Translations under genes and position numbers: made by a program | DNA from: Phytohabitans houttuyneae | Lineage (GTDB): Bacteria; Actinomycetota; Actinomycetes; Mycobacteriales; Micromonosporaceae | Direction: 5' to 3' | DNA: 64,000 nucleotides | Assembly: GCF_011764425.1 (NCBI RefSeq) | Contig: NZ_BLPF01000004.1 | Coordinates: 756,001-820,000 of the forward strand | The notes under the pieces: generated by a model | Database searches by the model: none | The model's input: only the letters and a program-made list of their open reading frames with translations | Told to the model about the DNA's origin: nothing | Part shown: positions 3,001 through 64,000 of the stretch, one piece after another | Position numbering within the stretch: position 1 is the first letter of the stretch | How the letters are laid out: every line of letters starts with the position of its first letter

Positions 3001-3840
3001 GACGTGACCGACCGGGACGCGGTGGCCGCGCTGCTGAGCAGGCACTCAGTCGGCGCGGTCGTGCACACCGCGGGCGTGCTGGACGACGGCCTCGTCGGCT
3101 CCCTCACCCCGGAGCGGCTCGCGACCGTGCTGCGCCCCAAGGTGGACGCCGCCTGGCACCTGCACGAGCTGACCCGGGACCGCGACCTCTCGGCCTTCGT
3201 GGTCTTCTCCTCCCTCGCCGGTACGTTCGGCGGCGCCGGCCAGGGCAACTACGCGGCCGGCAACGCGTTTCTGGACGGGCTCGCCGCCCACCGCCGCGCG
3301 CTCGGCCTGCCGGCGGTGTCGCTGGCGTGGGGCCGTGGGACGCCGGAGTGGGCATGATGGCCGGGCTCGGCGCCGCGGAGGTGGAGCGGATGGCCCGCGC
3401 CGGGCTGCCGCCGATACCGGTCGCGCAGGGCCTCGCGCTCCTGGACGCCGCGCTGGCCGCAGGTGAGCCCGTCGTGCTGCCCGCCCGCCTGGACCTCGCG
3501 GCCGTGCGTGCCGCCGGTGACGTACCGCCCGTGCTGCGCGGGCTGGTCCGCGCCCCGGCCCGCCGCCCGACCGCCCGGGACGCCGGGGAGCTGGCGCGGC
3601 AGCTGTCCCAGGTGGACATGGCAGATCTCGTACGCGGGCAGGTCGCCCAGGTGCTGGGACACGCGGACGCCGCCGCGGTGGAGCCGGACCGCACCTTCAA
3701 CGACCTCGGCTTCGACTCGCTCACCTCGGTCGAGCTGCGCAACCGCCTGCACGCGACGACAGGACTGAGGCTGCCGGCCACGCTCGTCTTCGACTACCCC
3801 ACGGTGGAGGCACTCGCGGCGTACCTGCACGGCGAGCTGT
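1..3840 (+). other. PKS module 1 (partial): [KS C-term]-AT(malonyl)-DH-KR(B)-ACP
   Basis: KS tail 1-~150. AT 433-~1320: GHSIGE at 712-729 with Ser 718, HAFH 997-1008, malonyl signature. Its AT belongs to a different lineage ([21 protein letters not shown]) from most others here ([20 protein letters not shown]). DH 1480-2270: HxxxGxxxxP as [10 protein letters not shown] (His 1582) and LLDGALH (Asp 2062), both catalytic residues present. KR from ~2305, Rossmann TGGTGGLG near 2833, LDD at 3079-3087 (B-type, D-hydroxyl), then [13 protein letters not shown] ~3621-3840 in frame 3 with LGFDSL, phosphopantetheine Ser 3717. Expected product of this extension: a trans alpha,beta-alkene. The frameshift at 3328-3335 lies between KR and ACP. 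Confidence 0.93.
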
Positions 3841-6800
3841 CCGGTGTGGACGCCGCCGTACGCGTGCCGGTGGCGGCGCGTACCGACGTGGTGGACGACC
3901 CGGTCGTGGTCGTCGGGATGGCCTGCCGCTTTCCCGGCGGGGTCGCCTCGCCGGAGGACCTGTGGCGGCTGGTCAGCGACGGCGTCGACGCGATCAGCGA
4001 GTTTCCCACCGACCGCGGCTGGGACCTGGACACGCTCTACAACCCGGACCCCGACCAGCCCGGCACCTCGTACACGCGCGAGGGCGGGTTCCTGCACGAC
4101 GCCGCCGAGTTCGACCCGGCATTCTTCGGGATGAGCCCGCGCGAGGCGACCGCGACGGACACGCAGCAACGCCTTCTGCTGGAGGTCTCCTGGGAGGCGA
4201 TGGAGCGCGCCGGCATCGACCCGGTGGCGCTGCGCGGCAGCCAGACGGGCGTGTTCGCCGGCGTCATGTACAACGACTACCGGCTGCTGGGCAGCAAGGA
4301 CCTGGAAGGGTTCCTCGGCAACGGCAGCGCGGCGAGTGTGGCGTCCGGCCGGGTGTCGTACACGTTCGGCTTCGAGGGGCCAGCGGTCACCGTCGACACC
4401 GCGTGCTCGTCGTCGCTCGTCGCGATGCACCTTGCCGCCCAGGCGTTGCGCGGCGGCGAGTGCGACCTGGCGCTGGCCGGCGGCGTGACGGTGATGTCCA
4501 CACCGGAGACGTTCATCGACTTCTCCCGGCAGCGCGGCCTGTCCGCCGATGGCCGGTGCAAGGCGTTCTCCGACGACGCGAGCGGGGTCGGCTGGTCCGA
4601 GGGGATCGGCATGCTCGTGCTGGAGCGGGAGTCCGACGCGCTCCGCAACGGGCACCGGATCCTGGCGGTGCTCCGCGGGTCGGCGGTCAACCAGGACGGC
4701 GCCTCCAACGGGCTCACCGCGCCGAACGGCCTCGCCCAGCAGCGCGTCATCCTCCAGGCGCTGGGCAGCGGCGGCCTGTCCACGGCGGACGTGGATGTGG
4801 TGGAGGCGCACGGCACGGGCACCGCGCTCGGCGACCCGATCGAGGCACAGGCACTGCTCGCCACGTACGGCCGGGACCGGGAGCGGCCGCTGCTGCTCGG
4901 CTCGGTCAAGTCAAACCTCGGCCACACGCAGGCCGCGGCCGGCGCCGCCGGCGTGATCAAGATGATCATGGCGATGGAGCACGGGACCGCGCCGAAGACT
5001 CTCTACGCCGAGCGGCCCTCGTCCCATGTGGACTGGAGCGCGGGCGACGTACGGCTCATCGCCGAGGCGGAGGCATGGCCGGAGAGCGGCCGGCCGCGAC
5101 GGGCGGCCGTCTCGTCGTTCGGCGTGAGCGGTACCAACGCGCACGTCATCCTGGAGCAGCCGCCGACCCGAAACGGTGTCACCGAGCCCGCGACCGTCAC
5201 CGCGTCCGTGGCCCCGTGGCCGGTCTCCGCCAAGACGCCGGCCGGGCTGGACGCGCAGGTGCAGCGGCTCCGGGCGTTCGCGGCCACGACCAGCGCCACG
5301 GCGGCCGACGTCGGCATCTCACTGACCGGCCGGTCGGTCTTCGCGCACAGGGCCGTGCTGCTGGCCGGATCGGGCGGGCCCACCGAGGTCGCCCGCGGCA
5401 CCGCCCGCTCCGGCGGCCTGGCGATCCTCTTCACCGGGCAGGGTTCGCAGCGGCTCGGCATGGGACGCGAGCTGTACGACCGGTTCCCGGCCTTCGCACA
5501 GGCGCTGGACGAGGCACTGTCCCACCTGGACGACGGGTTGCGCGACGTGATGTGGGGGACGACGCCGACCTGCTCAACCAGACGGGTTGGGCCCAGCCGG
5601 CCATCTTCGCCGTCGAGGTGGCCCTCTTCCGCCTGGTGGAGTCGCTCGGGATACGGCCCGGCCACGTAGCCGGCCACTCGATCGGTGAGGTGGCCGCCGC
5701 GTGCGCGTCCGGCGTCCTCCCGCTGGCGGACGCCGCCCGGCTCGTGTCCGCCCGGGCGGCGTTGATGCAAGCGCTGCCGCGCGGCGGTGCGATGGTGGCC
5801 GTCCAGGCCACCGAGGACGAGGTCGTGCCGCTGCTCACCGGCGCCGTCTCGATCGCCGCGGTGAACGGGCCGTCGTCGCTCGTCATCGCCGGTGAGGAGG
5901 AGGCGGTCCTCGCGGTCGCCGCCGGCTTCGCCAAGACAAGCCGGCTGCGGGTCTCGCACGCGTTCCACTCGCCGCTGATGGAGCCGATGCTGGCCGGCTT
6001 CCGTGAGGTCGTCCGCGAGCTGTCGTTCGCCCCGCCGCGCATCCCGTTCGTGGCGAGCGGTGACGTGACGTACCCCGAGTACTGGGTGCGGCACGTCCGC
6101 GAGGCGGTGCGTTTCGCCGACGGGATCAGCGCCCTGCACAGCGCCGGCGTCGCCACGTACCTGGAGCTCGGCCCGGACGCCGTGCTCTCCGGGATGGCCG
6201 CCGACTCGCTGCCGGACGAGGCCACCGTCGTACCGTTCCTGCGCCGCGACCGCGGCGAGGAGGCCAGCGCGGCCACCGCGCTCGCCAAGCTGCATGCGAT
6301 CGGGGTACCGGTCGACTGGGCCGCCTACTACGCGGGTACCGGCGCGCGGCGCGTGGACGTGCCGACGCACGCGTTCCTGCGCCAGCGGTACTGGCCGGTG
6401 ACCTCGGCCGGCCCGGTCGACGCCTCCGCTCTCGGCCTGGCTCCCGCCGGCCATCCGCTGCTCGGCGGTGCGGTCGACCTCGCGGGTGGCGAAGGGCTCG
6501 TGCTTACCGGGCGGCTCTCGGCGCAGGCCCACCCGTGGCTGCGCGACCACGCCGTGCTCGGTTCGGTGCTCGTGCCCGGTACCGCCCTGCTCGACCTCGC
6601 TGTCCGCGCCGCCGACGAGGCCGGCTGCGACCGGGTGGAGGAGCTGACCGTCGCCGCGCCACTGGTGCTGCCCGACCAGGGCGCGGTGGTCGTGCAGGTG
6701 CGGGTCGGTGCCGAGGAGGGTGGCCGGCGTCCGGTCGGCATCCACTCCCGCCCGGCCGGCGTCTCCGGTACCGGCTGGACCCAGCACGCCTCGGGCACGC

Positions 6801-16100: not shown

Positions 16101-19100
16101 GATGGGCTGCCGGCTCCCCGGCGACGTGCGGTCACCGGACGACCTGTGGCGGCTTGTCGTCGACGAGCGGGACGCGATGGGCGGCATTCCGGCCGACCGC
16201 GGCTGGGACCTGGCCACCCTGCTCGGTCCGGACACGCCGGCCACCGCGCTCGTGGGCGGGTTCGTCGCCGACGCGATGGACTTCGACGCCGACTTCTTCG
16301 GCATCTCGCCGCGCGAGGCGCTCGCGATGGACCCGCAGCAGCGCCTGCTGCTGGAGACCGCGTGGGAAGCCCTGGAGCGGGCCGGCATCGCGCCGAGGTC
16401 GCTCGCCGGCTCGGACACCGGGGTCTTCGTCGGCGCGGGCAGCTCGGACTACGGCGCCGCGCTCCAGGACGACGAGGACTCGCAGGGTTTCGTGCTCACG
16501 GGTACGGCACTGAGCGTCATCTCCGGCCGCGTGTCGTACACGCTCGGCCTCGAAGGGCCCGCGCTCACCGTCGACACCGCCTGCTCCTCGTCGCTCGTCG
16601 CCATGCACCTCGCCGCCCAGGCGCTGCGCACCGGCGAGTGCTCGCTGGCGCTCGTCGGCGGCGTGACAGTGATGGTGGACCCGCTCATCTACACCGAGTT
16701 TCACCGGCAGGGCGGCTCGGCGGCGGACGGGCGGTGCAAGGCGTTCGCCGACGCGGCCGACGGGCCGGGCTGGTCGGAGGGGGCCGGGGTTCTCGTGCTG
16801 GAGCGCCTGTCCGACGCCCGGCGAAAGGGTCACCCGGTGCTCGCGCTGATCCGCGGCTCAGCCGTCAACCAGGACGGCGGCAGCAACGGCCTCACCGCGC
16901 CGAACGGTCCCGCCCAGCGCCGCGTCATCCGCCAGGCGCTCGCCAACGCCGGCCTCGCACCGTCCGACGTGGACGTCGTCGAGGGGCACGGCACCGGCAC
17001 CGCGCTCGGCGACCCGATCGAGGCGCAGGCGGTGCTGGCCACGTACGGGCAGGACCGCGAGCGGCCGCTGCTGCTCGGCGCCGTCAAGTCGAACATCGGT
17101 CACCTCCAGGCCGCATCCGGTACCGCGGGCGTCATCAAGATGGTCGAGGCGCTGCGGCACGGCATCGCGCCGAGGACACTGCACGTGGACGCCCCTCGAC
17201 GCACGTGGACTGGTCCGCCGGAGCGGTCTCGCTGCTGACGGCCAGCCAGCCGTGGCCCGAGGTGGGGCGGCCGAGGCGGGCGGCGGTGTCGTCGTTCGGC
17301 ATCAGCGGCACCAACGCGCACGTCATCCTCGAAGAGCCACCCGCCGCCGAGCCGGTAGGGGAGCCGGCCGCCACGCCCGCCCTCGTCGCATGGCCGGTGT
17401 CGGCGCGCTCCGCCGCCGCGCTCGACGCGCAGATCGAGCGGCTCAACGCGCTCCCGGAGGACGCTCGGCTCGACACCGGCTACTCCCTCGCGACCGGCCG
17501 TTCCCTCTTCGAGCACCGGGCGGTCCTGCTGGCCGGTGCCGAGGGCGTGGTCGAGACCGCCCGCGGCACCGCCCGGGAGCGGACGCTCGCGCTGCTCTTC
17601 ACCGGCCAGGGCGCGCAGCGGCTGGGCATGGGACGCGGGCTGTACGACCGCTTTCCCACCTTCGCCGCCGCACTCGACGAGGTGCTGTCCCACCTGGACC
17701 CCGGCCTGCGGGACGTCATGTGGGGTACGGACCGTGACCGCCTCGACCACACCGGGTGGGCGCAGCCCGCACTATTCGCCATCGAGGTCGCGCTCTACCG
17801 GCTCGTCGAGTCGCTCGGCATCCGGGCCGACCAGCTGACCGGCCACTCAATCGGCGAGGTCGCCGCCGCACATGTCGCGGGCGTCCTCACCCTCACCGAC
17901 GCCGCGACGCTTGTCTCGGCCCGGGCCTCGCTGATGGGCGCCCTGCCGGCCGGTGGCGCGATGGTGGCGGTACGCGCCACGGAGGACGAGGTGAGGCCGC
18001 TGCTCACCGGCGGCGTGTCGATCGCCGCCGTCAACGGGCCCGCCTCGGTCGTCATCGCCGGCGAGGAGGAAGCCGTCCTGGCGCTGGCCGGGCGTTGGCG
18101 GGCGAAGCGGCTCGCGGTGTCGCACGCTTTCCACTCGCCGCTGATGGACCCGATGCTCGACGACTTTCACACGGTCGTGAAGGGACTGTCGTTCTCCCCA
18201 CCCCGCATACCCCTCGTCGCCGGCGGCGACGTCACCTCGCCCGAGTACTGGGTGCGGCAGGTGCGCGAGCCGGTCCGCTTCGCCGACGCGGTCGCGACCC
18301 TGCGCGAGCGGGGCGTGGACGCGATGCTGGAGGTCGGCCCGGACGGTGTGCTGTCGGCGATGGTCGCCGGCGCGGCGCCCGGGGATGCGGTCGTGGTGCC
18401 GCTGCTGCGCGCCGACACCGGCGAGGAACTGGCCGCCACCACCGCCCTTGCCCGCCTGCACGTCGTAGGCGTCGACGTCGACTGGGCGGCCGCGTACGCC
18501 GGCACGGGTGCCCGCCGGATCGACCTGCCCACGTACCCGTTCCAGCGCAGCCGCTACTGGCCGGCCCGCCCCGCCGGCGATGACGGGCTCTTCCGGCCGC
18601 TGTGGACGCCGCTCGCGACCCCGGCCGGCGAACCGGCCCCGGACACCGTGCTGCTCGACATCACGCCGGACACCGGTGGTGACCTGGCCGGCACGGCGCA
18701 AGGCGCGGTGCGGGGCGCGCTCGCCGCCGTACAGTCCTGGCTCGCCGAGGAAGGCCGCACGGACTCACACCTTGTCGTGGTGACCCGCAACGCGACGGCC
18801 GTCGCGCCGGGCGACACAGTGGACGGTATCGCCGCCGCGGGCGTGTGGGGACTGGTCCGCTCGGCGCAGTCCGAGCATCCCGGCCGGATCACGCTCGTCG
18901 ACGTGGACGGCACCGCCGGATCCGAGGCCGCGCTCCCGGCTGCCGTGGCCTCCGCCCGCGCGGCCGGCGAGCCCCAGGTGGCCATCCGGAGCGGCACCGC
19001 GTCCGTGCTCCGCCTCTCCCCGGTCGAAGGGCGGCCCGCGCCCACCACCCGGTGGGAGGCGGCCCGCGAGGGCACCGTGCTCATCACCGGCGGCACCGGC

Positions 19101-26400: not shown

Positions 26401-29400
26401 GGGCCGCGAGCTGTACGACAGGTACCCCGTCTTCGCGGCCGCCCTCGACGGCGCTTTCGCCCATCTCGACCCCGACCTCCGCGACGTGATGTGGGGCGGT
26501 GACGCCGCAAAACTCGACTCGACCGGCTGGGCCCAGCCCGCCCTGTTCGCCGTCGAGGTTGCCCTGTACCGGCTTGTCGAGTCGTGGGGCCTGCACGCCG
26601 ACCACCTGGCCGGCCACTCGATCGGCGAGGTGGCGGCCGCACACGTGGCCGGCGTGCTCTCGCTCGAAGACGCGGCCACGCTCGTCTCCGCGCGCGCCCG
26701 GCTCATGCAGGCGCTGCCGGCCGGCGGCGCGATGGTGGCCGTGCAGGCCGCCGAGGCGGACGTGCTGCCTCTTCTCACGGACGGCGTCTCGATCGCCGCC
26801 GTCAACTCGCCGACTTCGCTGGTGCTCGCCGGCGACGAAGACGCGGTGCTGGCGCTCGCCGGACGCTTCGACCGGACCACGCGGTTGCGGGTGTCGCATG
26901 CCTTCCACTCGCACCTGATGGATCCGATGCTCGCCAGTTTCCGCGCGGTGGTGTCGGCCCTCACCTTCGCGCCGCCGCGCATCCCGCTCGCCGCCTCCGG
27001 TGACGTCACGGACCCTGAGCACTGGGTCAGGCATGTCCGGGAGGCCGTCCGCTTCGGTGACGCGGTCGCCGCTCTCCGCGACGCCGGGGTCTCCGCATTC
27101 CTGGAGGTGGGGCCGGACGGGCCGCTCGCGGCGATGGCGCGCGAACAGCTGCCGGAAGGCGTGACCGTCGTCCCGCTGCTGCGCAAGGACCGGCCGGACG
27201 AGGTGTCCACGCTCACCGCCGCCGCGCGCCTGCACGTGGCCGGCCTCGACGTCGACTGGGCCGAGACGCTTTCCGGCCTCGGCGCCCACCGCTTCGACCT
27301 GCCCACCTACCCGTTCCAGCACGAGCGCTACTGGGCCGCCCCGTACCGGCCGCGACCGGGGTGGACCCGGTCGACGCCGAGTTCTGGTCCGCGGTCGAGC
27401 GCGCGGACATCGACTCGCTGGCGTCCACGCTGGAGCTGGACGGCGACACCGTCACGGCGATGGTGCCGGCGCTCTCGTCCTGGCGGCGCCGCCGGACCGC
27501 CGAGTCCACGCTGGACTCGTGGCGCTACGCCGAATCCTGGGCGCCCTTGACCGGCACCCCGTCGGGGAAGCCGGCCGGACGGTGGCTCGCCGTCGTTCCC
27601 GACGTGGCGGACGAGTGGGTATCCACGGTCGCCGCCGCTTTGGGCGCGACGGCCGTCACCGAGGCCGCCCTCGAAGTGGGTGAGTACGACGGCGTCGTCT
27701 CCCTGCTCGCTCCGGGCGCCGGTGGCGGGACGCAGGCCGCCGCTGCCACCACCGCCCGCCTGCTGCGCGCCCTGGGTGAGGCCGGCATCGAGGCTCCCCT
27801 GTGGGTGGTCACCCGCGGCGCGGTCGCCGTGGACGGCACAGACCCGGCGCTGAGCCCGGCGCAGGCGGCGGTCTGGGGCTCGGCCGGGTCGCGGCGATGG
27901 AGCAGCCCCGCCGCTGGGGCGGCCTGCTCGACCTGCCGGAAGCGCTTGACGACCTGGTGCTGAGCCACGCCGCGGGCGTCCTGTCCCGCCGTGACGGCGA
28001 GGACCAGGTCGCCGTCCGGGGTGGAGAGGCGTACGGCAGGCGACTCGTCCCGGCGCCGGCAGGCTCGGGTGGATGGACACCCTCCGGCACCGTGCTCGTC
28101 ACCGGCGGCACCGGGGCGCTGGGCCGCCAGGTGGCCCGGTGGCTCGCCGCCAACGGTGCCGAGCGGCTGCTGCTCACGAGCCGTCGTGGCCCCGAAGCGC
28201 CGGGAGCCTCCGACCTGCGCGACGAGCTTGCCGCCGCTGGTGTCGAGGTCACCGTCGCCGCGTGCGACGCCGCCGACCGGGACGCCATGGCGGCGCTCGT
28301 CGACGGCCACCGGCTGAGCGCGGTCGTACACACCGCCGGCAGCCTCGACGACGGCGTGCTCGACTCGCTCACGCCGGACCGGTTCGACGACGTGTTCCGG
28401 TCCAAGGTGGACAGCGCGCTCGTGCTGGACGAGCTGGCGCCGGACGCGGACGCGTTCATCCTGTTCTCCTCGACGGCGCACGCGATCGGCAACCCGGGCA
28501 GGCCAACTACGCGGCCGCCAACGCCGCCCTCGACGCCATAGCCGCCCGCCGCCGGGCCGCGGGCCGTGCCGCCACCGCCATCGCCTGGGGTGCCTGGGCC
28601 GGCGACGGCATGGCGAGCCGGGACGGCGTGGTCGAGTGGACCCGTTCCGGTGTCGCGCCGATGGATCCCGAGATGGCGCTCAGCGCGCTCGCCCGCGCAG
28701 CCGGGCAGCCCGAACCGGCGGTCGTGGTGGCCGACATCCGGCGCCCCTACCTGGTGGAGGCTCTCAACGCCGGCAGGCCGAGCCCACTGGTGGCAGAGCT
28801 GCCGGGCGCGGCAGCCGTCATCGCCGCCGCGCGGGACGCGTGGGCGGCCGCCGGGTCGGCGGGCGCGGAACTCCGCCAGCGGCTGTCGGGCCTGTCCGAG
28901 CAGGAGCGGACGGACGCCCTCATCGACCTGGTACGCGAGCGCGCCGCGGCCGTGCTCGGGTACGGCTCCGCCGCCGCACTCGACGTGGACAAGGCGTTCC
29001 GGGACCTGGGGTTCGACTCGCTCACCGCGGTCGAGCTGCGCAACCAGCTCGGCGCCGTCACGGCACTGACCCTGCCGCCCGCGCTGGTCTTCGACTTCCC
29101 GACGCCCCGCGCGCTCGCCGCGCACCTGCTCGGCGAGCTGACCGGCGAGTCAGGCGACCTGGTCGTCCCACGGGTCCGCACCATGGGCGAGACGGACGAG
29201 CCGATCGCGATCGTCGGCATGGCCTGCCGCTTTCCGGGCGGCGTCCGCTCACCGGAGGACCTGTGGCGCCTCGTCGACGAGGGCCGGGACGCCATCACCG
29301 GGTTTCCGACCGACCGCGGCTGGGACCTCGCCATCCAGAGCGACACCCACGAGGGCGGCTTCCTCGATGGCGTCGCCGACTTCGACGCCGCGTTCTTCGG

Positions 29401-32400
29401 CATCTCCCCGCGCGAAGCGGTCTCCATGGACCCGCAGCAGCGGCTGCTGCTGGAGACCGCGTGGGAGGCGTTCGAGTCGGCCGGCCTGGACCCGGCCACA
29501 CTGCGGGCCAGCCAGACCGGCGTCTTCGTCGGCACGAACGGGCAGGACTACGCGGGGCTGCTCATCAACTCGAAGGAGGGTGACAGCGGCCACGCGGCGA
29601 CAGGTCTCGCGGCGAGCGTGATCGCTGGGCGGCTGGCGTACACGTACGGTCTCGAAGGACCGGCGATGACCGTCGACACCGCCTGCTCGTCCTCGCTCGT
29701 CGCGCTGCACCTGGCCGCCGAGTCGCTGCGGCGGGGCGAGTGCGACCTGGCGCTGGCCGGCGGCGTGACAGTGATGACGACCTCGGACGCCTTCGTGGAG
29801 CTGAGCCGGCAGGGTGCGCTGTCACCGGACGGCCGGTGCAAGGCCTTCGGCGCGGGCGCGGACGGCACCGGCTTCGCCGAGGGCGCGGGGTTGCTGCTGG
29901 TGGAGCGGCTCGCGGACGCCGAGCGGCACGGCCACCGGGTGCTCGCGGTGCTGCGCGGCTCGGCGGTCAACCAGGACGGTGCCTCCAACGGCCTCTCCGC
30001 ACCCAACGGCCGCGCGCAGCAGCGGGTCACCCGGCAGGCATTGGCCAACGCCGGCCTGTCGCCGTCCGATGTGGACGCTGTCGAGGCGCACGGCACGGGT
30101 ACCAAGCTCGGCGACCCGATCGAGGCCCAGGCGCTGCTCGCCTCGTACGGGCAGGAGCGCGAGCGCCCGCTGTGGCTCGGCTCGGTCAAGTCGAACATCG
30201 GCCACACCCAGGCAGCGGCCGGCGTCGCCAGCGTCATCAAAATGGTCGAGGCGATGCGGCACGGTGTACTGCCGAGAACGCTGCACGCGGAAACACCCAC
30301 GTCGCATGTGGACTGGGCGACCGGAGCGGTCCGGCCACTCGTCGAGCGGATCGACTGGCCCGAGACGGGACGGCCACGCCGGGTGGGCGTGTCGTCGTTC
30401 GGGATCAGCGGCACCAACGTGCACGCGATCCTGGAGCAGGCGCCGTCGCGCCCCGAAAAGCCGGTCATCGCCGAGCCGACGCCAGCCGTCCTTCCGTACC
30501 TCCTGGCCGGCAGGACCCCGGCGGCCCTCCGGGGACAGGCGGCGGCCCTGGCCGACCACCTGGATGGCCACCCCGAGCTGCCGCCGGCGGCGGTCGGGCA
30601 CGCGCTGGCGACCACCCGTGCCGCCTTCGACCACCGCGCGGTCGTCGTCGGCACCGGCACCGACCAGCTGCGCGAACGACTGCGCGCGCTGGCCGCCGGT
30701 GAACGGCCGGCGGGCGTGGCGACCGGCGTGGCCCGGCCCCTCGGCAAGGTGGCGTTCGTCTTCCCCGGCCAGGGTTCGCAATGGGCCGGCATGGCCGTGG
30801 ACCTGCTGGACAGCGCCCCGACCTTCCGGGAGCACGTCGCGCGCTGCGAGCGGGCGCTCGCGCCACACCTGGACTGGAAGGTCACCGACGTGCTGCGCGG
30901 CGTGCCGGGCGCCCCGTCGATCGACGAGGTCGACATCGTGCAGCCGGTGCTCTTCACCGTCATGGTCTCGCTCGCCGCACTGTGGCAGAGCTACGGCGTA
31001 CGGCCGGACGCGGTCGTCGGCACGAGCCAGGGCGAGATCGCCGCCGCGTACGTGGCCGGCGCGCTGTCTCTTGAGGACGCCGCGCTCGTCGTCGCCCGCC
31101 GCAGCCGCGTGCTCGGCGCCGAGCTTGTCGGCATGGGTGCGCTCGCGTCGCTGGCGCTGCCGGTCGAGGCGGCGCGGGAACGGATCAGCCGGTGGAACGG
31201 CCGGCTCAGCATCGGCGGCGTGAACGCGCCCGCGCTCGTCACCGTCGCCGGCGACCACGAGGCGCTGGCCGAGCTGGGTGCCGAGTGCGAGGCGGAGGGC
31301 ATCCGCATGCGGGTCGTCGCCGCCTCGGTCGCCACGCACTGCGCCGACGTCGACGCGCTCCGGCCGCGGCTGCTGGAGGTGCTCGCCGGCCTCAACCCGC
31401 GCGAGCCAGAGGTGCCGATCTTCTCGACGGTCACCGGCGAGCGCCTGGCACCTGGCGAGCTTGTCGACACCGAGTACTGGTACGTCAACACGCGCAAGCC
31501 CGTCCTCTTCGGACAGGTCACGGAACGGCTGCTGGAGTACGGCTGCGACACGTTCCTGGAGATAAGCCCGCACCCGGTGCTCTCGCTCGCCATCGACGGC
31601 ACCGCCGCGGCCGCCGGCACCGAGGCGGCCGTGCTCGGTACGCTGCGGCGTGGTGAGGGCGGCCTCGAACGATTCCTCACCTCGGTGGGCGAGGCATACA
31701 CGCGCGGCATCCCCATCGACTGGTCGGTGGCGCTGCCCGCCACGGTGCCGGTGAGCCTTCCCACCTACGCCTTCCAGCGTGAGCGGTACTGGCCGGTGCC
31801 GAACCCCGTCGCGCCGGGCGGTGACCCGCTGGACCAGGAGTTCTGGGGAGCCGTCGAGAGCGAGGACGTGGAGACGCTCGCCCCCCGGCTCGACGTGCCG
31901 GTCGAGTCGCTGGCCGCCGTGGTACCCGCGCTGCTTTCCTGGCGCCGCCACCGCCGCGACGAGTCCACCGTGGAGTCGTGGCGCTACCGGGTCGCCTGGC
32001 GGCCGATCCCGGCACTGGGAGCGGGCGCGCTCACCGGCACGTGGCTGCTCGTCACCGCCGCCGGCCACCTCGCCGCCGATGTGGCGGAGGCGCTGGAGTC
32101 GGCGGGCGCGGACGTACACCACCTGGTCCTGGACGAGTCCTGCGTGGACCGTGCGGTGCTGGCGGACCGGCTCAGCGACCTCGGCCCGGTCGCCGGCATC
32201 GTCTCGGCCGCCGCGGCCGCCGAGGAGCCGTGTGCTGCCCACCCGGCACTCGCGCTCGGCCTCGCTCTCAACCTGGCGCTCCTGCAGGCCCTGGGCGACG
32301 CGGGCGTGGACGCACCACTGTGGTTCGTCACCCGGGGCGCGGTCGCCGCCGGTCCCGCCGACCGCGTGCCGCACCCGCTGCAGGCGCAGGTGCTCGGGCT

Positions 32401-35400
32401 CGGCTGGAGCGCCGCGCTGGAGCACCCGCACCGCTGGGGCGGCGTGGTCGACGTACCCGAAATCCTGGATGGCGCCGGCGGGCGGCGGCTTGCCGCGGTG
32501 CTGGCCGGCTGCGGCGAAGACCAGGTCGCGCTCCGCGCGTCCGGCGCCCTGGCTCGCCGCGTCGTCCGCGCGCCGTCGACACCCGTACCGGCGGGGGCCT
32601 GGAGCCCGCGCGGCACGGTGCTCGTCACCGGCGGCACCGGCACGATCGGACCGGACCTGGTGCGCTGGCTGGCGGGGCAGGGCGCGAAGCACATCGTGCT
32701 GCCGACCCGCCGAGGGCTCGGCGCGCCGGGCATGGCCGACCTCGCCGCCGAGCTCGGCGCCACCGGCACGCGGGTCGACGTCGTCGCCTGCGACGTGGCC
32801 GACCGGGACGCCGTGGCCGCGCTGCTCGCCGGCATCAGGGCCGAGGGGCACACGATCCGCACCGCTGTCCACGCCGCCGCGGTGATCGAGCTCGCCATGC
32901 TCGCGGAGACCAGCATGGCGGACTTCGAACGGGTCATCGCCGCGAAGGTGCGCGGCGCGCAGCACCTCGACGAGCTGCTGGACGGCGACGAGCTCGACGC
33001 GTTCGTGCTCTACTCCTCCAACGCCGGCATGTGGGGCAGCGGCGACCACGGCGCGTACGTGGCGGGTAACGCGTACCTCGGCGCGCTCGCGCACAGCCGC
33101 CGCGCCCGCGGTCTCGTCGCGACGTCCATCCACTGGGGAAAGTGGCCGGACGACGTGGAGCTGTTCGGCCAGGAGGACCCGTTCGGCATTCGCCGTGGCG
33201 GCCTGGAGTACATCGACCCGCAGCTCGCACTCACCGGCCTCAAGCGTGCCCTCGACGACGACGAGACCGCGCTCGCGCTCACCAACGTGCGGTGGGAGCG
33301 GTACTTCCCGGTCTTCACCAGCGGCCGCACCACGACGCTGTTCGACGAGGTGCCCGAGGTGCGGGCGCTGTCGGAGGCCGGCAAGCCGGTCGCGACGGAG
33401 GACAACGACGATGGCGAGCTCGCCGCGCGGCTGCGCGGGCTGCTCCCGGCCGAGCAGGAGCGGGCGCTGCTGACCCTGGTGCGCGGTGAGGCCGCCAAGG
33501 TGCTCGGGCACCCGTCGCCCGAGGCCGTGGGGGAGCGGCGCGCGTTCCGGGAGGTGGGCTTCGACTCGGTCACCGCGGTCGACCTGCGCAACCGGCTCGC
33601 CGCCGCGACAGGCCTGACGCTGCCGGCGACGATGGTCTTCGACCACCCGAACCCGGCGGCGCTCGCCGAGTTTCTGCGCGGCCAGGTGCTCGGCACCACC
33701 GGCGCCGCGGCCGTACCTGTCACGGCCGCACACGTCTCGGACGACGAACCGATCGCGATCGTCGGCATGGCCTGCCGCTATCCCGGCGGTGTCCGGTCCC
33801 CGGAGGACCTGTGGCGGGTGGTCTTCGACGGCGTGGACGCCATCACCGGCTGGCCCACCGACCGCGGCTGGGACGCTGCCGGCCTCTACGACCCCGACCG
33901 CGACCGGGAAGGCAAGACGTACTCCCTCCACGGTGGATTCCTTGACGACCCGGCCGGCTTCGACCCGGGCTTCTTCGGAGTCTCACCGCGCGAGGCGCTC
34001 GCGATGGACCCGCAGCAGCGGCTGCTGCTGGAGACCGCGTGGGAGGCCATCGAGCGGGCCGGCATCGACCCTGTGTCGCTGCGCGGCAGCCAGACCGGCA
34101 CGTTCGTCGGCGCCACGTACCAGGACTACGCGGTCGGCGCGTCCACGGAGGAGGCGGCCGAGACGCACATGGTCACCGGCTCGGCCTCGTGTGTGGTCTC
34201 CGGGCGCGTGTCCTACCTGCTCGGGCTTGAAGGCCCGGCCGTCTCGCTGGACACCGGCTGCTCCTCGTCTCTCGTGGCGCTGCATCTCGCGGCCCAGTCG
34301 CTGCGCAGCGGGGAGAGCACGCTCGCGCTCGCCGGCGGCGTGACGGTGATGCCGAACCCGACCGAGTTCGTCGCGTTCAGCCGGCTCGGCGCGCTCTCCA
34401 TGGATGGGCGGTGCAGGGCGTTCGGCGAGGGCGCCGACGGCATGTCGCTCGCCGAGGGTGTTGGCGTCGTGCTGGTGGAACGCCTCTCCGACGCGGTGCG
34501 CAACGGTCACCCGGTGCTGGCGGTCCTGCGGGGCAGCGCGATGAACCAGGACGGCGCCTCCAACGGCCTCACCGCACCCAACGGACCGTCCCAGCAGCGG
34601 GTGATCCGGCAGGCACTCGCCAACGCCGGCCTGCGGGCATCCGAAGTGGACGTGGTGGAGGCGCACGGCACGGGTACCGCGCTCGGCGACCCGATCGAGG
34701 CACAGGCGCTCCTGGCCACGTACGGGCAGGACCGGGAGCGGCCGCTCTGGCTCGGCTCGGTCAAGTCGAACATTGGCCACACCCAGATGGCCTCCGGCGT
34801 CGCGGGAATCATCAAGATGGTGATGGCGCTGCGTCAGGGCCACCTCCCGCGCACTCTGCACGCGGACGACCGCACCTCCCACGTGGACTGGACGGCGGGC
34901 GCGATCGACCTGCTCACCGAGCCGGCTGAGTGGCCGGTCAACGGTCACCCGAGGCGGGCCGGGGTGTCGTCGTTCGGCATCAGCGGCACGAACGTGCACG
35001 CGATCCTGGAGGAGGCGCCCCCGCCGGCACAGCGCCCGGAGCCGGCGACGCCCGCCGGGCCGGTGCCGTGGCTCGTCTCCGGACGCGGCGCCGACGCGCT
35101 CCGCGGGCAGGCTGCCCAGCTGCTGTCCTACCTGGACGCCGAGCCGGACCCGGCGGACCTCGGCTGGTCGCTGGCCACCGCCCGCTCGACGTTCGAACAC
35201 CGCGCGGTCATCGTCGGGGAGAGCCTGGAGGACGCCCGCGACGGGCTGGCGGCGCTCGCGTCCGGCGCCGAGTCGGCGGCCGTGGTGTCCGGCGTCGCGG
35301 TCGAGGGCGCCGGCCGTGGCGGCGTGTTCGTCTTCCCCGGCCAAGGGTCGCAGTGGTGGGGGATGGGCCGGGAGCTGATGGCCACATCCGACGTGTTCCG

Positions 35401-38299
35401 CGAGGCGGTGCACGAGTGCGCCGCCGCGCTCGCGCCGCACGTGGACTGGTCGGTCGCCGATGTCGTGGCCGGCACCGGCGATCCGGACCTGATGGAGCGG
35501 GTCGACGTGGTACAGCCGGCCCTCTTCACCGTCATGGTGGCGCTCGCCGAGGTGTGGCGCTCGTACGGGGTCACGCCCGCCGCGGTCGTCGGCCACTCGC
35601 AGGGGGAGATCGCCGCCGCGTACGTGGCGGGCGCGCTCTCGCTCGACGACGCCGCCGCCGTGGTCGCCCTGCGCAGCCGCGCGCTGGTGGGCCTCTGTGG
35701 ACACGGCGGGATGATGTCGGTCGCGGCACCGGTGGAGCGGGTGACCGAGCTGATCGCGCCGTGGGTCGGCGACGTCTCGGTGGCCGCCGTCAACGGCCCG
35801 GCGTCGGTCGTCGTCTCCGGCACGCCCGGCGCGCTCGACGCGCTGGCCGCCGAGTGCGAGCGGGCGCAGGTACGGACCCGCCGGGTCTCGGTCGACTACG
35901 CCTCGCACGGCCCGCAGGTCGAGTCGGTGCGGGACGAGCTGCTGCGGGTGCTCGCCGGCGTGCGGCCACGCCCGTCGCAGGTGCCGTTCTACTCGACGGT
36001 GACCGGTGGCCAGATCGACGCGTCCACGCTGGACGCCGGGTACTGGTACACGAATTTGCGCCAGACGGTACGGATGGACGAGGCGACCCGCGGGCTGATG
36101 GCGGACGGTTACCGCGTCTTCGTCGAGTCGAGCCCGCATCCCGTGCTCGTGCCCGGCCTGCCGGACGAGGTGGCCGCGGTCGGCTCGCTTCGCCGCGACG
36201 ACGGCGGCCGGACCCGCCTGCTCACCTCGCTGGCGGAGGCGCACGTGCTCGGTGTGCCTGTGGACTGGCGGGTGGCGTTCCCCGGCACCGGGTACCGCGT
36301 CCTCGACCTGCCGACGTACGCCTTCCAGCGGCGGCGGTTCTGGATCTCCAGTGCGAGCGGCCGGGCACGGTCCACGGTGGACTCCTGGCGCTACCGCGTG
36401 GAATGGAGCCGCCTGCCCGACCCGCCCGCCGCCAACGGCCACCACGCCGGCCCATGGCTCGCCGTCGTGCCCGCCGTACCCGACCCGTGGGTGGATGAGG
36501 TCGTCGCCGCCCTCGGGCCGGACACGGTCCGCGCGGAGGCCGCGAAGCTCCCGGTCGGGGAGAGCTTCGCCGGGGTGGTGTCGCTGCTGGCCGCGGTGGA
36601 CGAGCGCGGCGCCGAAGACGTACCCGCCGGGCTCACCGCCACCGTCGAGCTCGTGCGGGCGCTCGGTGACAGCGGCATCACCGCCCCGCTGTGGTGCGTG
36701 ACCCGCGGCGCCGTCTCGACCGGGCCGCAGGACCCGGTGACCAGCCCGGCGCAGGCCGCCGTCTGGGGGCTGGGCCGGGTCGCCGCGCTCGAACACCCGG
36801 ACCGGTGGGGCGGGCTCGTCGACCTGCCTGAGCGCACAGACAGCCGGACGGCGGCCGTGCTGCTCGGCGTGCTCCGGGGTGAGGGCGGCGAGGACCAGGT
36901 CGCGGTGCGCGCTTCCGGCGTACACGGGCGGCGCCTGCGGCGTGCCCCCGCGCGGCCGGCGACCGTCGCGCGGCCCTGGCGTGCCGGCGGCACGGTGCTT
37001 GTCACCGGCGGCACGGGCGGAGTCGGTGGCCAGGTGGCCCTCTGGGCGGCCCGGTCCGGCGCGGCGCACCTGTTGCTGACCAGCCGGCGGGGTATGGCCG
37101 CACCGGGTGCCGAAGCGCTCGTGGCTGAGCTGGAGAGCCTGGGAGCCAGGGTGACGGTCGCTTCCTGCGACGTCTCCGACCGTGACGCCCTGGCCGCCCT
37201 GCTCGCCGGCATCCCCGCCGACGCGCCGCTCACCGCTGTCATGCACGCGGCCGGCGCGGTCGACGGCGAAGGGCCGCTCGCCACGCTGGACAGCGACCAG
37301 GTCGCCCTCATGTTCGGCTCGAAGGCCACCTCGGCGTGGCACCTGCACCAGCTCACGGCACATCTGGATCTAAGTGATTTCGTCTTGTTCTCCTCCGGTG
37401 CCGGGGTGTGGGGTAGTGGTGGCCAGCCCGCGTACGCGGCGGCGAACGCCTACCTGGACGCGCTGGCCGAGTACCGCAGGAGTGAAGGTCTTGCGGCGAC
37501 GTCGGTTGCCTGGGGTGCCTGGGGCGAGGCCGGACTCGCCGCGCGGTCGGAGGTGAACGAGCAGTTGCGGCGCCGTGGGGTGTTGCCGATGGAACCGCCG
37601 CTCGCGCTGGCGGCGCTCCAGGGTGCGCTCGAGGACGGTACGACCGTGCTCACGGTGACCAACATGGACTGGGAGCGCTTCGCGCCGACGTTCACCGCTG
37701 CCCGACCCAGCCCGCTGCTGTCCGACCTGGCCGAGGTGCGGCGGCTCGACGCGCCCGCGGACGACGCACCACAGTCCAATGGGGACGTATCGGTGCTGAA
37801 GCGCCGGCTTGACGCGCTGCCGGCCGGCGAGCGGAGCCGCGAAATCCTCGATCTGGTGCGCGCGGCGGCCGGCGCGGTCCTCGGGTACGACGCCGGCGAG
37901 GCGATCCCGGCCGGTCGCGCCTTCCGTGACCTCGGCTTCGACTCGGTGTCCGCAGTGGAGCTGCGCAACCGCCTCAAGGCGTCCACCGGGCTGACGCTGC
38001 CCGGCGCGCTGGCCTTCGACTACCCGACACCGAACGCGCTCGCCCAGAACCTGCTGTCCCGCCTGTACCCGGAAGACGCACCGGCCGAGACGGCGGACGA
38101 CCCGGACGCGGAGATCCGGCGGGTGCTCGCGTCCATCCCGGTCGGCCGGCTCCGCAAGGCAGGGCTGCTGGACATGGTGCTCCAGCTCGCGAAGGAGGAC
38201 GGCGACGTGCCGCCGCCGGCGCCCATCACGGGTACCTCCATCGACGACATGGACGCCGAAAGCCTCCTTCAGCTGGCGATCGACAACACGACGACCTGA
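20390..38299 (+). CDS. Modular type I PKS, gene C: four KS-AT-KR-ACP modules
   Basis: Tetramodular polyketide synthase, 5,970 residues once three single-base losses are restored (CCCC 27339-27342, GGGG 27875-27878, GGG 28496-28498, all around the module 6 KR). ATG 20390 is preceded by GAGGAAG (20382-20388) and starts a docking helix ([20 protein letters not shown]). All four modules lack DH and ER, so each should leave a hydroxyl: a polyol-forming enzyme. Modules 5 and 6 have malonyl-type ATs (GHSIGE/HAFH). Module 7 has an aberrant AT (GTSQGE/VATH). Module 8 has a textbook methylmalonyl AT (GHSQGE/YASH). KR types by motif are A1, B, A2 and A1. The C-terminal tail ([19 protein letters not shown], then [13 protein letters not shown]) belongs to a different docking subtype from those of genes A and B and matches the N-terminus of gene D. 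Confidence 0.96.
20492..24790 (+). other. PKS module 5: KS-AT(malonyl)-KR(A1)-ACP
   Basis: KS 20492-21760 with TACSASL (Cys 21005; the usual motif is TACSSSL). AT ~22010-22930: GHSIGEI (His 22268) and HAFHSPLM, malonyl. The KR structural half begins [18 protein letters not shown]; catalytic part ~23753-24290 with TGGTGGLG. It lacks LDD (HAAGYAEAG instead) and has a Trp eight residues before the catalytic Tyr ([10 protein letters not shown]) with no His after it, the A1 pattern, so an L-hydroxyl is expected. ACP ~24563-24790 with LGFDSL. Confidence 0.93.
27338..27344 (+). other. Apparent single-base loss 5 (AT-KR linker, module 6)
   Basis: YWAAP in frame 2 continues as [15 protein letters not shown] in frame 1. 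One C is missing from CCCC 27339-27342. Confidence 0.8.
27874..27880 (+). other. Apparent single-base loss 6 (KR structural half, module 6)
   Basis: QAAVWG in frame 1 continues as [15 protein letters not shown] in frame 3, as in modules 5, 7 and 8. The change falls on GGGG 27875-27878. Confidence 0.85.
28494..28500 (+). other. Apparent single-base loss 7 (KR active site, module 6)
   Basis: HAIGNPG in frame 3 continues as [12 protein letters not shown], the catalytic Tyr motif, in frame 2. One G is missing from GGG 28496-28498. Confidence 0.85.
29198..33690 (+). other. PKS module 7: KS-AT(atypical)-KR(A2)-ACP
   Basis: KS 29198-30441 with TACSSSL. AT 30749-~31790 belongs by sequence ([23 protein letters not shown]) to the methylmalonyl-like clade. 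Its nucleophile motif is GTSQGE (31019-31036, Ser 31025), with Thr replacing the near-invariant His, and its specificity motif is VATH (31328-31339) where module 8 has YASH. KR catalytic ~32615-33150 has no LDD and carries [10 protein letters not shown]: Trp plus a His three residues before Tyr, the A2 pattern (L-hydroxyl, epimerised alpha carbon). ACP ~33467-33690 with VGFDSV. Extender unit uncertain; an A2 KR suggests a branched unit. Confidence 0.9.
33746..38070 (+). other. PKS module 8: KS-AT(methylmalonyl)-KR(A1)-ACP
   Basis: KS 33746-35010 with LDTGCSSSL (Cys 34259; Gly replaces the usual Ala before Cys). AT 35321-~36300: GHSQGEI (Ser 35597) and YASH (35897-35908), the classical methylmalonyl-CoA signature and the only such AT in the window. 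KR catalytic ~36983-37530 lacks LDD (AAGAVDGEG) and has [11 protein letters not shown]1 pattern, L-hydroxyl expected. ACP ~37835-38070 with LGFDSV. Expected: alpha-methyl, beta-hydroxyl, directly before the polyene. Confidence 0.94.
38096..38296 (+). other. C-terminal docking domain of gene C protein (different subtype)
   Basis: The tail reads [31 protein letters not shown], a Pro-rich linker, then [15 protein letters not shown]. This IP..RLR.AGLLD..L.LA / IDDMD..SLL.LA form differs from the gene A and B tails and commonly pairs with N-termini of the EALRxSLKExERLR form, which gene D has. Confidence 0.82.

Positions 38300-38320: not shown

Positions 38321-64000
<25,680 letters not shown>

Follow-up and report, generated by a model that had tools for sequence, protein, structure and literature searches.

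Acyltransferase (AT) motifs serve the prediction of polyketide structures from genomes, and several described systems bear on the two positions considered here. In EryAT6, the substitution H643S at the position of the GHSxG His was reported to keep 57.6% of activity while raising the use of ethyl and butyl units 1.6-fold and 4.1-fold, respectively, and H643F to make the domain stricter for methylmalonyl (PMC8044089). With more than half of the activity retained in H643S, the GHSxG His is therefore not essential. According to another report, Tyr744 and Ser746 of YASH also govern size (PMC13351777). The related motif VASH has been described as ethylmalonyl-specific (PMC6090053), is carried by epothilone AT7, where it is discussed with methylmalonyl specificity (PMC8058987), and was introduced into FkbB AT4 in place of CPTH with no reported change (PMC6090053). 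On the supply side, a crotonyl-CoA carboxylase/reductase (CCR), a KSIII and an HBDH have been described as one operon for isobutylmalonyl-CoA (PMC3943440). Here, these systems are compared with one AT of a large Phytohabitans houttuyneae cluster, which corresponds to the pks/nrps-3 of Komaki and Tamura (2020, PMC7692728), with agreement in the module order as published.

Location and motifs of the module 7 acyltransferase

The window (the whole 64,000-nucleotide stretch of contig C4 under analysis) contains on its forward strand a PKS ORF of 3408 aa (28073..38299) that encodes the end of module 6, module 7 and module 8. Domain mapping gave module 7 the architecture KS-AT-KR-ACP, all on the same strand, with the KS at 29198..30418 (identified with a profile built in this analysis), a noncanonical AT, hereafter designated AT7, at 30755..31711, the KR at 32612..33145 and the ACP at 33476..33676. 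The AT of module 8 (AT8; 35327..36256, forward strand) was used as a comparison neighbour of the methylmalonyl type. With 291.6 bits for AT7 and 320.4 bits for AT8 against a cut-off of 32.7, both matched Pfam PF00698, and AT7 thus qualifies as a type I PKS acyltransferase domain.

As stated in the preliminary description, AT7 reads GTSQGE in its active-site loop (31019..31036) and VATH in place of YASH at its specificity motif (31328..31339), and the neighbouring AT8 has GHSQGE and YASH; both AT7 motifs were found in the translation and in the DNA, within a single ORF. The same description spoke of a lost active-site GHSxG His. This residue is indeed replaced by Thr, but it adjoins the catalytic Ser, which is present, and is distinct from the catalytic His, which is the last residue of VATH and is also present. 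In a 20-row alignment, S93, R118 (25 residues past the Ser), Asn159 and H197 of AT7 were invariant. AT7 conforms neither to the methylmalonyl-CoA signature (GHSQG with YASH) nor to the malonyl-CoA signature (GHS[VILM]G with HAFH) seen in other ATs of the cluster, and its VATH is one residue apart from VASH, one of the small-residue motifs looked for in ethyl-/alkylmalonyl-CoA ATs. Among the 19 cluster ATs with motifs read, it is the sole one of neither HAFH nor YASH type. The A2-type KR ascribed to module 7 was also recovered: relative to its active Tyr it has a Trp at -8 and a His at -3, which we take to be the A2 fingerprint. Of the 25 KRs listed, 23 could be read at the Tyr motif, and two of these, in modules 7 and 17, show this combination; the AT of module 17 is likewise non-malonyl (YASH).

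GTSQG is kept in the AT7 orthologues of P. flavus and of a third Phytohabitans genome, both with VSTH, at 87-88% overall identity; a sequencing error as its source was rejected because these two same-genus orthologues retain it. No AT7 match at the cut-off was obtained in three of the other Phytohabitans genomes searched. In the Phytohabitans pairings, dN/dS was 0.13 and 0.19 for AT7, 0.10 and 0.12 for AT8, and 0.13 and 0.16 for AT6, the rows for AT4, AT5 and AT9 being left out because at least some of them hit one shared location in the relatives, and hence were not orthologues. With its catalytic Ser, His and Arg retained and its sequence constrained by purifying selection, AT7 is probably an active enzyme.

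The GTSQG loop is rare. The pattern VGTSQGE[VILM]AA was found in 15 stretches in a DNA search of 84,980 species genomes, from which near copies of the window genome were possibly omitted. GTSQGE occurred in 2 of 397 genomes, and 150 genomes of the order yielded 144 GHSQGE matches against a single GTSQGE, namely that of the window. These 144 GHSQG ATs (among which four rows were blank at the motif column and a misaligned one read PAST) included 111 with YASH, and Thr preceded the catalytic His in none of the rows readable there. Among 18 GTSQG ATs, consisting of the 15 stretches, the window, the third Phytohabitans genome and L072 (which duplicates L024), 10 had Thr before the catalytic His and 2 had YASH. 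The latter two, from Kutzneria (L028) and Pseudosporangium (L030), grouped in the tree with ordinary YASH ATs, and GTSQG alone was rejected as a diagnostic motif because of these two pairings with YASH in ordinary methylmalonyl-like ATs.

Cluster setting and extender supply

The P. houttuyneae genome comprises 11,342,817 bases in 5 contigs, and the cluster spans approximately C4:690448-823938. According to domain mapping, the loading ACP at C4:754591 is followed by modules 1-14, while modules 15-25 occupy 690448-744415 and terminate in a thioesterase-like sequence. Nearby genes identified by Pfam encode an amine oxidase, a carbon-nitrogen hydrolase, an acyl ligase and a discrete VinK-like AT (C4:747389-748342, about -8611 to -7658 relative to the window; VinK_C match; 90% conserved in two relatives), and a guanidinoacetate N-methyltransferase-like protein is also encoded. 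The discrete AT reads GPCFG and therefore apparently has Cys for the usual Ser. Amine oxidase, amidohydrolase, acyl ligase, discrete AT and loading ACP together are the set of a guanidino-started (marginolactone-like) cluster and, by analogy with primycin, suggest a 4-guanidinobutyryl-type starter with a putative guanidine group. A literature search for the product of the cluster found none.

Several irregularities were seen along the assembly line. Reading-frame switches occur inside single PKS modules, in an ACP, an AT, a KS, a KR and an ACP (window 3357-3830, 5531-5609, 17169-17315, 28481-28514 and about 62580-62780), and are consistent with indel assembly errors or real gene breaks; the frames were read separately, with no correction of the sequence. 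Two further domains may be inactive: the KR of module 19 (C4:711675), which is without the active Tyr motif, and the DH of module 23 (C4:730303-730920), which is incomplete and in separate pieces.

A cassette of three overlapping genes at C4:748351-751885 (about -7649 to -4115, or 4-8 kb upstream of the window) provides the cluster with the CCR-type supply genes expected for an alkylmalonyl AT. The CCR (C4:748351-749694; about 588.7-588.9 bits against a curated cut-off of 378.55) is directly followed by an overlapping 3-hydroxyacyl-CoA dehydrogenase gene (C4:749691-750887), itself overlapped by a FabH-type KASIII gene (C4:750887-751885). P. flavus and the third species also carry all three genes, with identities of 81-96%. 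Phylogeny grouped the cluster CCR with crotonyl-CoA-type CCRs, apart from CinF; PDB searches gave about 750-762 bits for crotonyl-type chains versus 541 for the octenoyl-CoA enzyme, and the cluster CCR reads TCAS where CinF reads TCGS. Being of crotonyl type and not CinF-like, the enzyme points to a short chain, ethylmalonyl-CoA, although a comparable KSIII-HBDH-CCR set has been described for isobutylmalonyl-CoA (PMC3943440). In the predicted order of the pathway, KASIII would make a 3-oxoacyl thioester, the 3-hydroxyacyl-CoA dehydrogenase would reduce it, an enoyl hydratase encoded elsewhere in the genome would carry out the dehydration, and CCR would perform the reductive carboxylation to the alkylmalonyl unit. 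A second CCR is encoded on C1. A special kinship of the cluster CCR with those of Kutzneria and Pseudosporangium was considered and rejected, the identity of 72-74% being no higher than with other crotonyl-type CCRs.

Relatives without the GHSxG His

Phylogeny was computed on 191 rows, excluding L072, rows shorter than 250 aa and repeats, with both motif regions masked. Fourteen ATs whose motif reads xTH, including AT7, formed a single clade (support 0.96), all of them without the GHSxG His and with Thr before the catalytic His; this clade is nested in a 21-member clade containing the VASH-type 6iyt (support 0.97). In the whole set, xTH was seen in 14 of the 24 ATs without the GHSxG His, versus none of the 167 that have it. 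Apart from its orthologues, AT7 stood closest to the ATs of Actinoalloteichus and Actinoplanes that read APTH and GPTH (support 0.90). A similarity search without motif requirement, covering 394 genomes of the class with at most five candidates scored per genome, revealed at least 29 new loci, some from genomes that repeat named Parafrankia genomes, and four further rows without a locus; among the loci listed, the six with VATH comprised five GTSQG and one GNSQG, none being GHSQG. The coupling of His loss and Thr gain is not universal, FkbB AT4 being an exception with its reported GHSQGE and CPTH (PMC6090053).

Linkage to supply genes was compared between GTSQG and GHSQG ATs. A CCR lay within 40 kb on the same contig for 5 of 16 GTSQG ATs versus 6 of 144 GHSQG ATs (Fisher p = 0.0017; p = 0.008 without the P. 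flavus orthologue), a limit that narrowly leaves out two GHSQG ATs of the Phytohabitans cluster, at 43 and 47 kb; with a limit of 50 kb the counts were 5/16 and 8/144 (p = 0.004, or 0.016 without this orthologue). The six control ATs come from three genomes and the five GTSQG cases include two orthologues. These p values serve as a guide only, given the dependence between ATs that share a cluster and the shortness of many draft contigs. FkbH was near 3 of 16 GTSQG and 24 of 144 GHSQG ATs, and FkbH linkage was accordingly rejected as a general property of GTSQG ATs.

The Pseudosporangium cluster contains an extra AT with GSSQG and VATH about 6 kb from its CCR, and GHSQG relatives with VASH (G469) or VAGH (G658, G672) also have a CCR at a distance of some 20-23 kb. 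Speaking against such a link, the genomes of Amycolatopsis, Actinoplanes, Actinoalloteichus and P. colletiae yielded no CCR, and neither did the AT contigs of the Parafrankia-type genomes G483 and G468, several contigs being short. Amycolatopsis sp. MtRt-6 (L195) has two GTSQG/VATH ATs in one cluster, and no CCR was found in its genome. GTSQG combined with YASH lies 4-11 kb from a CCR in Kutzneria sp. CA-103260 (L207) and Pseudosporangium ferrugineum (L206/L205). The stretches examined in this Kutzneria strain showed no second odd AT, so GTS alone may matter there. Streptomyces and Actinacidiphila (L026, L027, L032 and L034) have a related group of GTSQG ATs in which the second motif is FASH or RASH and the N-terminal one FPGHGIQW or similar; in this group, the surroundings of the MZ04 AT include two CCRs, two KASIII and a dehydrogenase.

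A broader reading, which we hold tentatively and at somewhat less than even odds, is that replacement of the GHSxG His by Thr, Ser or Asn is coupled to the acquisition of Thr just ahead of the catalytic His, the two changes acting as one switch for larger or otherwise noncanonical extenders. AT7 would then belong to a separate, unnamed actinomycete lineage, a natural counterpart of EryAT6 H643S, using alkyl units in Phytohabitans and Pseudosporangium and oxygenated ones where FkbH is present. This coupled lineage is the part that seems new: the literature searched gave no account of it, and none on GTSQG in an AT, bare-string matches not being about ATs by title.

Predicted extender unit and known systems

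It is probable that AT7 is an active AT that loads an alkylmalonyl-CoA larger than methylmalonyl, drawn from the CCR cassette, onto the module 7 ACP, because the cluster carries this cassette, AT7 has the only odd AT motif seen, and its clade is shared with a VASH AT. The likeliest unit would be ethylmalonyl-CoA, followed by isobutylmalonyl or a similar C4-C6 unit. As a predicted pocket geometry, Val for Tyr at the YASH position would open the AT7 pocket, the smaller Thr that substitutes for the GHSxG His would leave room near the thioester, and Thr before the catalytic His would accompany this loss. The unusual branched extender proposed at first is partly supported, as a larger alpha-branched unit, by the cassette, the odd motif and the VASH-AT clade; it may be ethylmalonyl, uncommon rather than exotic, and the GHSxG His is dispensable.

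Loading of ordinary methylmalonyl-CoA, with GTSQG and VATH as near-neutral variants, would agree with the two GTSQG ATs that carry YASH among ordinary YASH ATs, with the VASH of epothilone AT7 and with the frequently small effect of isolated motif swaps. This reading appears unlikely, as it would leave the dedicated CCR cassette without a user, no second odd AT having been seen in the cluster. The coupled His loss and Thr gain of the 14 xTH ATs, absent from all 167 GHS ATs, and the retention of GTSQG in the orthologues also speak against it, and even the two GTSQG/YASH ATs are close to a CCR (4 and 11 kb). A methoxymalonyl-ACP, hydroxymalonyl-ACP or aminomalonyl-ACP substrate is brought to mind by the APTH and GPTH relatives, whose distances to FkbH genes are 33 and 28 kb, with a 3-hydroxyacyl-CoA dehydrogenase-like gene adjoining FkbH. 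For AT7 such a substrate is quite improbable: contig C4 is without FkbH, the three FkbH genes of the genome being on C3 and far off on C2, P. flavus yielded a single one, some 4.7 Mb distant, and GTSQG ATs at large lack FkbH enrichment.

The preliminary description had also offered an inactive AT7, with module 7 charged in trans, and a conserved discrete AT gene is indeed present in the cluster. Its only Pfam match is VinK_C, however, and it has GPCFG instead of GHSxG; VinK is reported to shuttle starter-type acyl chains between ACPs (PMC6164871), and the discrete transferase described for primycin loads the guanidino starter (PMC7522111). Together with the four invariant residues of AT7 (Ser93, Arg118, Asn159 and His197) and a purifying selection like that of AT8, this makes loading in trans scarcely credible. 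Judged from sequence, the best fit is an AT that is active and takes a larger unit, whereas inactivity fits poorly.

An active AT7 lineage would show that the GHSxG His can be replaced in nature without apparent loss of constraint, in parallel with the engineered H643S, and the GTSQG/VATH change offers a two-residue pair to try in altering extender choice. The best PDB sequence match of AT7 is 6iyt, an AT of the salinomycin PKS (56% identity, compared with only 52% between AT7 and AT8), which we take to be that of module 14, with ethylmalonyl as its unit. It shares with AT7 the masked-tree clade of 21 and a Val-Ala opening of the motif but reads GHSQG/VASH instead of GTSQG/VATH. FkbB AT4 of FK506, described for allylmalonyl/ethylmalonyl (PMC6090053), resembles AT7 in the Thr that precedes the catalytic His and in its larger extender, yet retains the GHSxG His and has Cys-Pro where AT7 has Val-Ala. 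Divergolide, like the Phytohabitans cluster, has a CCR-KSIII-HBDH set beside its PKS (PMC3943440), and its AT4, of isobutyl type, is listed with VASH, resembling the VATH of AT7 (PMC6490886); unlike this isobutylmalonyl operon, the Phytohabitans cluster has a CCR of crotonyl type. The primycin PKS likewise combines a guanidino starter set with one larger-extender AT, but there this is AT18 of the last module, reported with GHSQG/GAGH and butyl- to hexylmalonyl (PMC7522111), and here AT7 belongs to module 7 of 25. In the published table for pks/nrps-3, module 7 (the third KS/AT/KR/ACP of the matching gene) is entered as a bare 'AT' with no substrate, the blank position that an unlisted motif leaves in structure prediction, and the entry between those for the discrete AT and the loading-ACP gene is an 'ER' gene, at the position of the CCR, which the 2020 annotation thus appears to list as 'ER'. 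The product termed there a 'large polyene' (PMC7692728) could now be given a sharper prediction, as the product of 25 modules that begins with a guanidino-type starter and bears a single larger alkyl branch, introduced by module 7.
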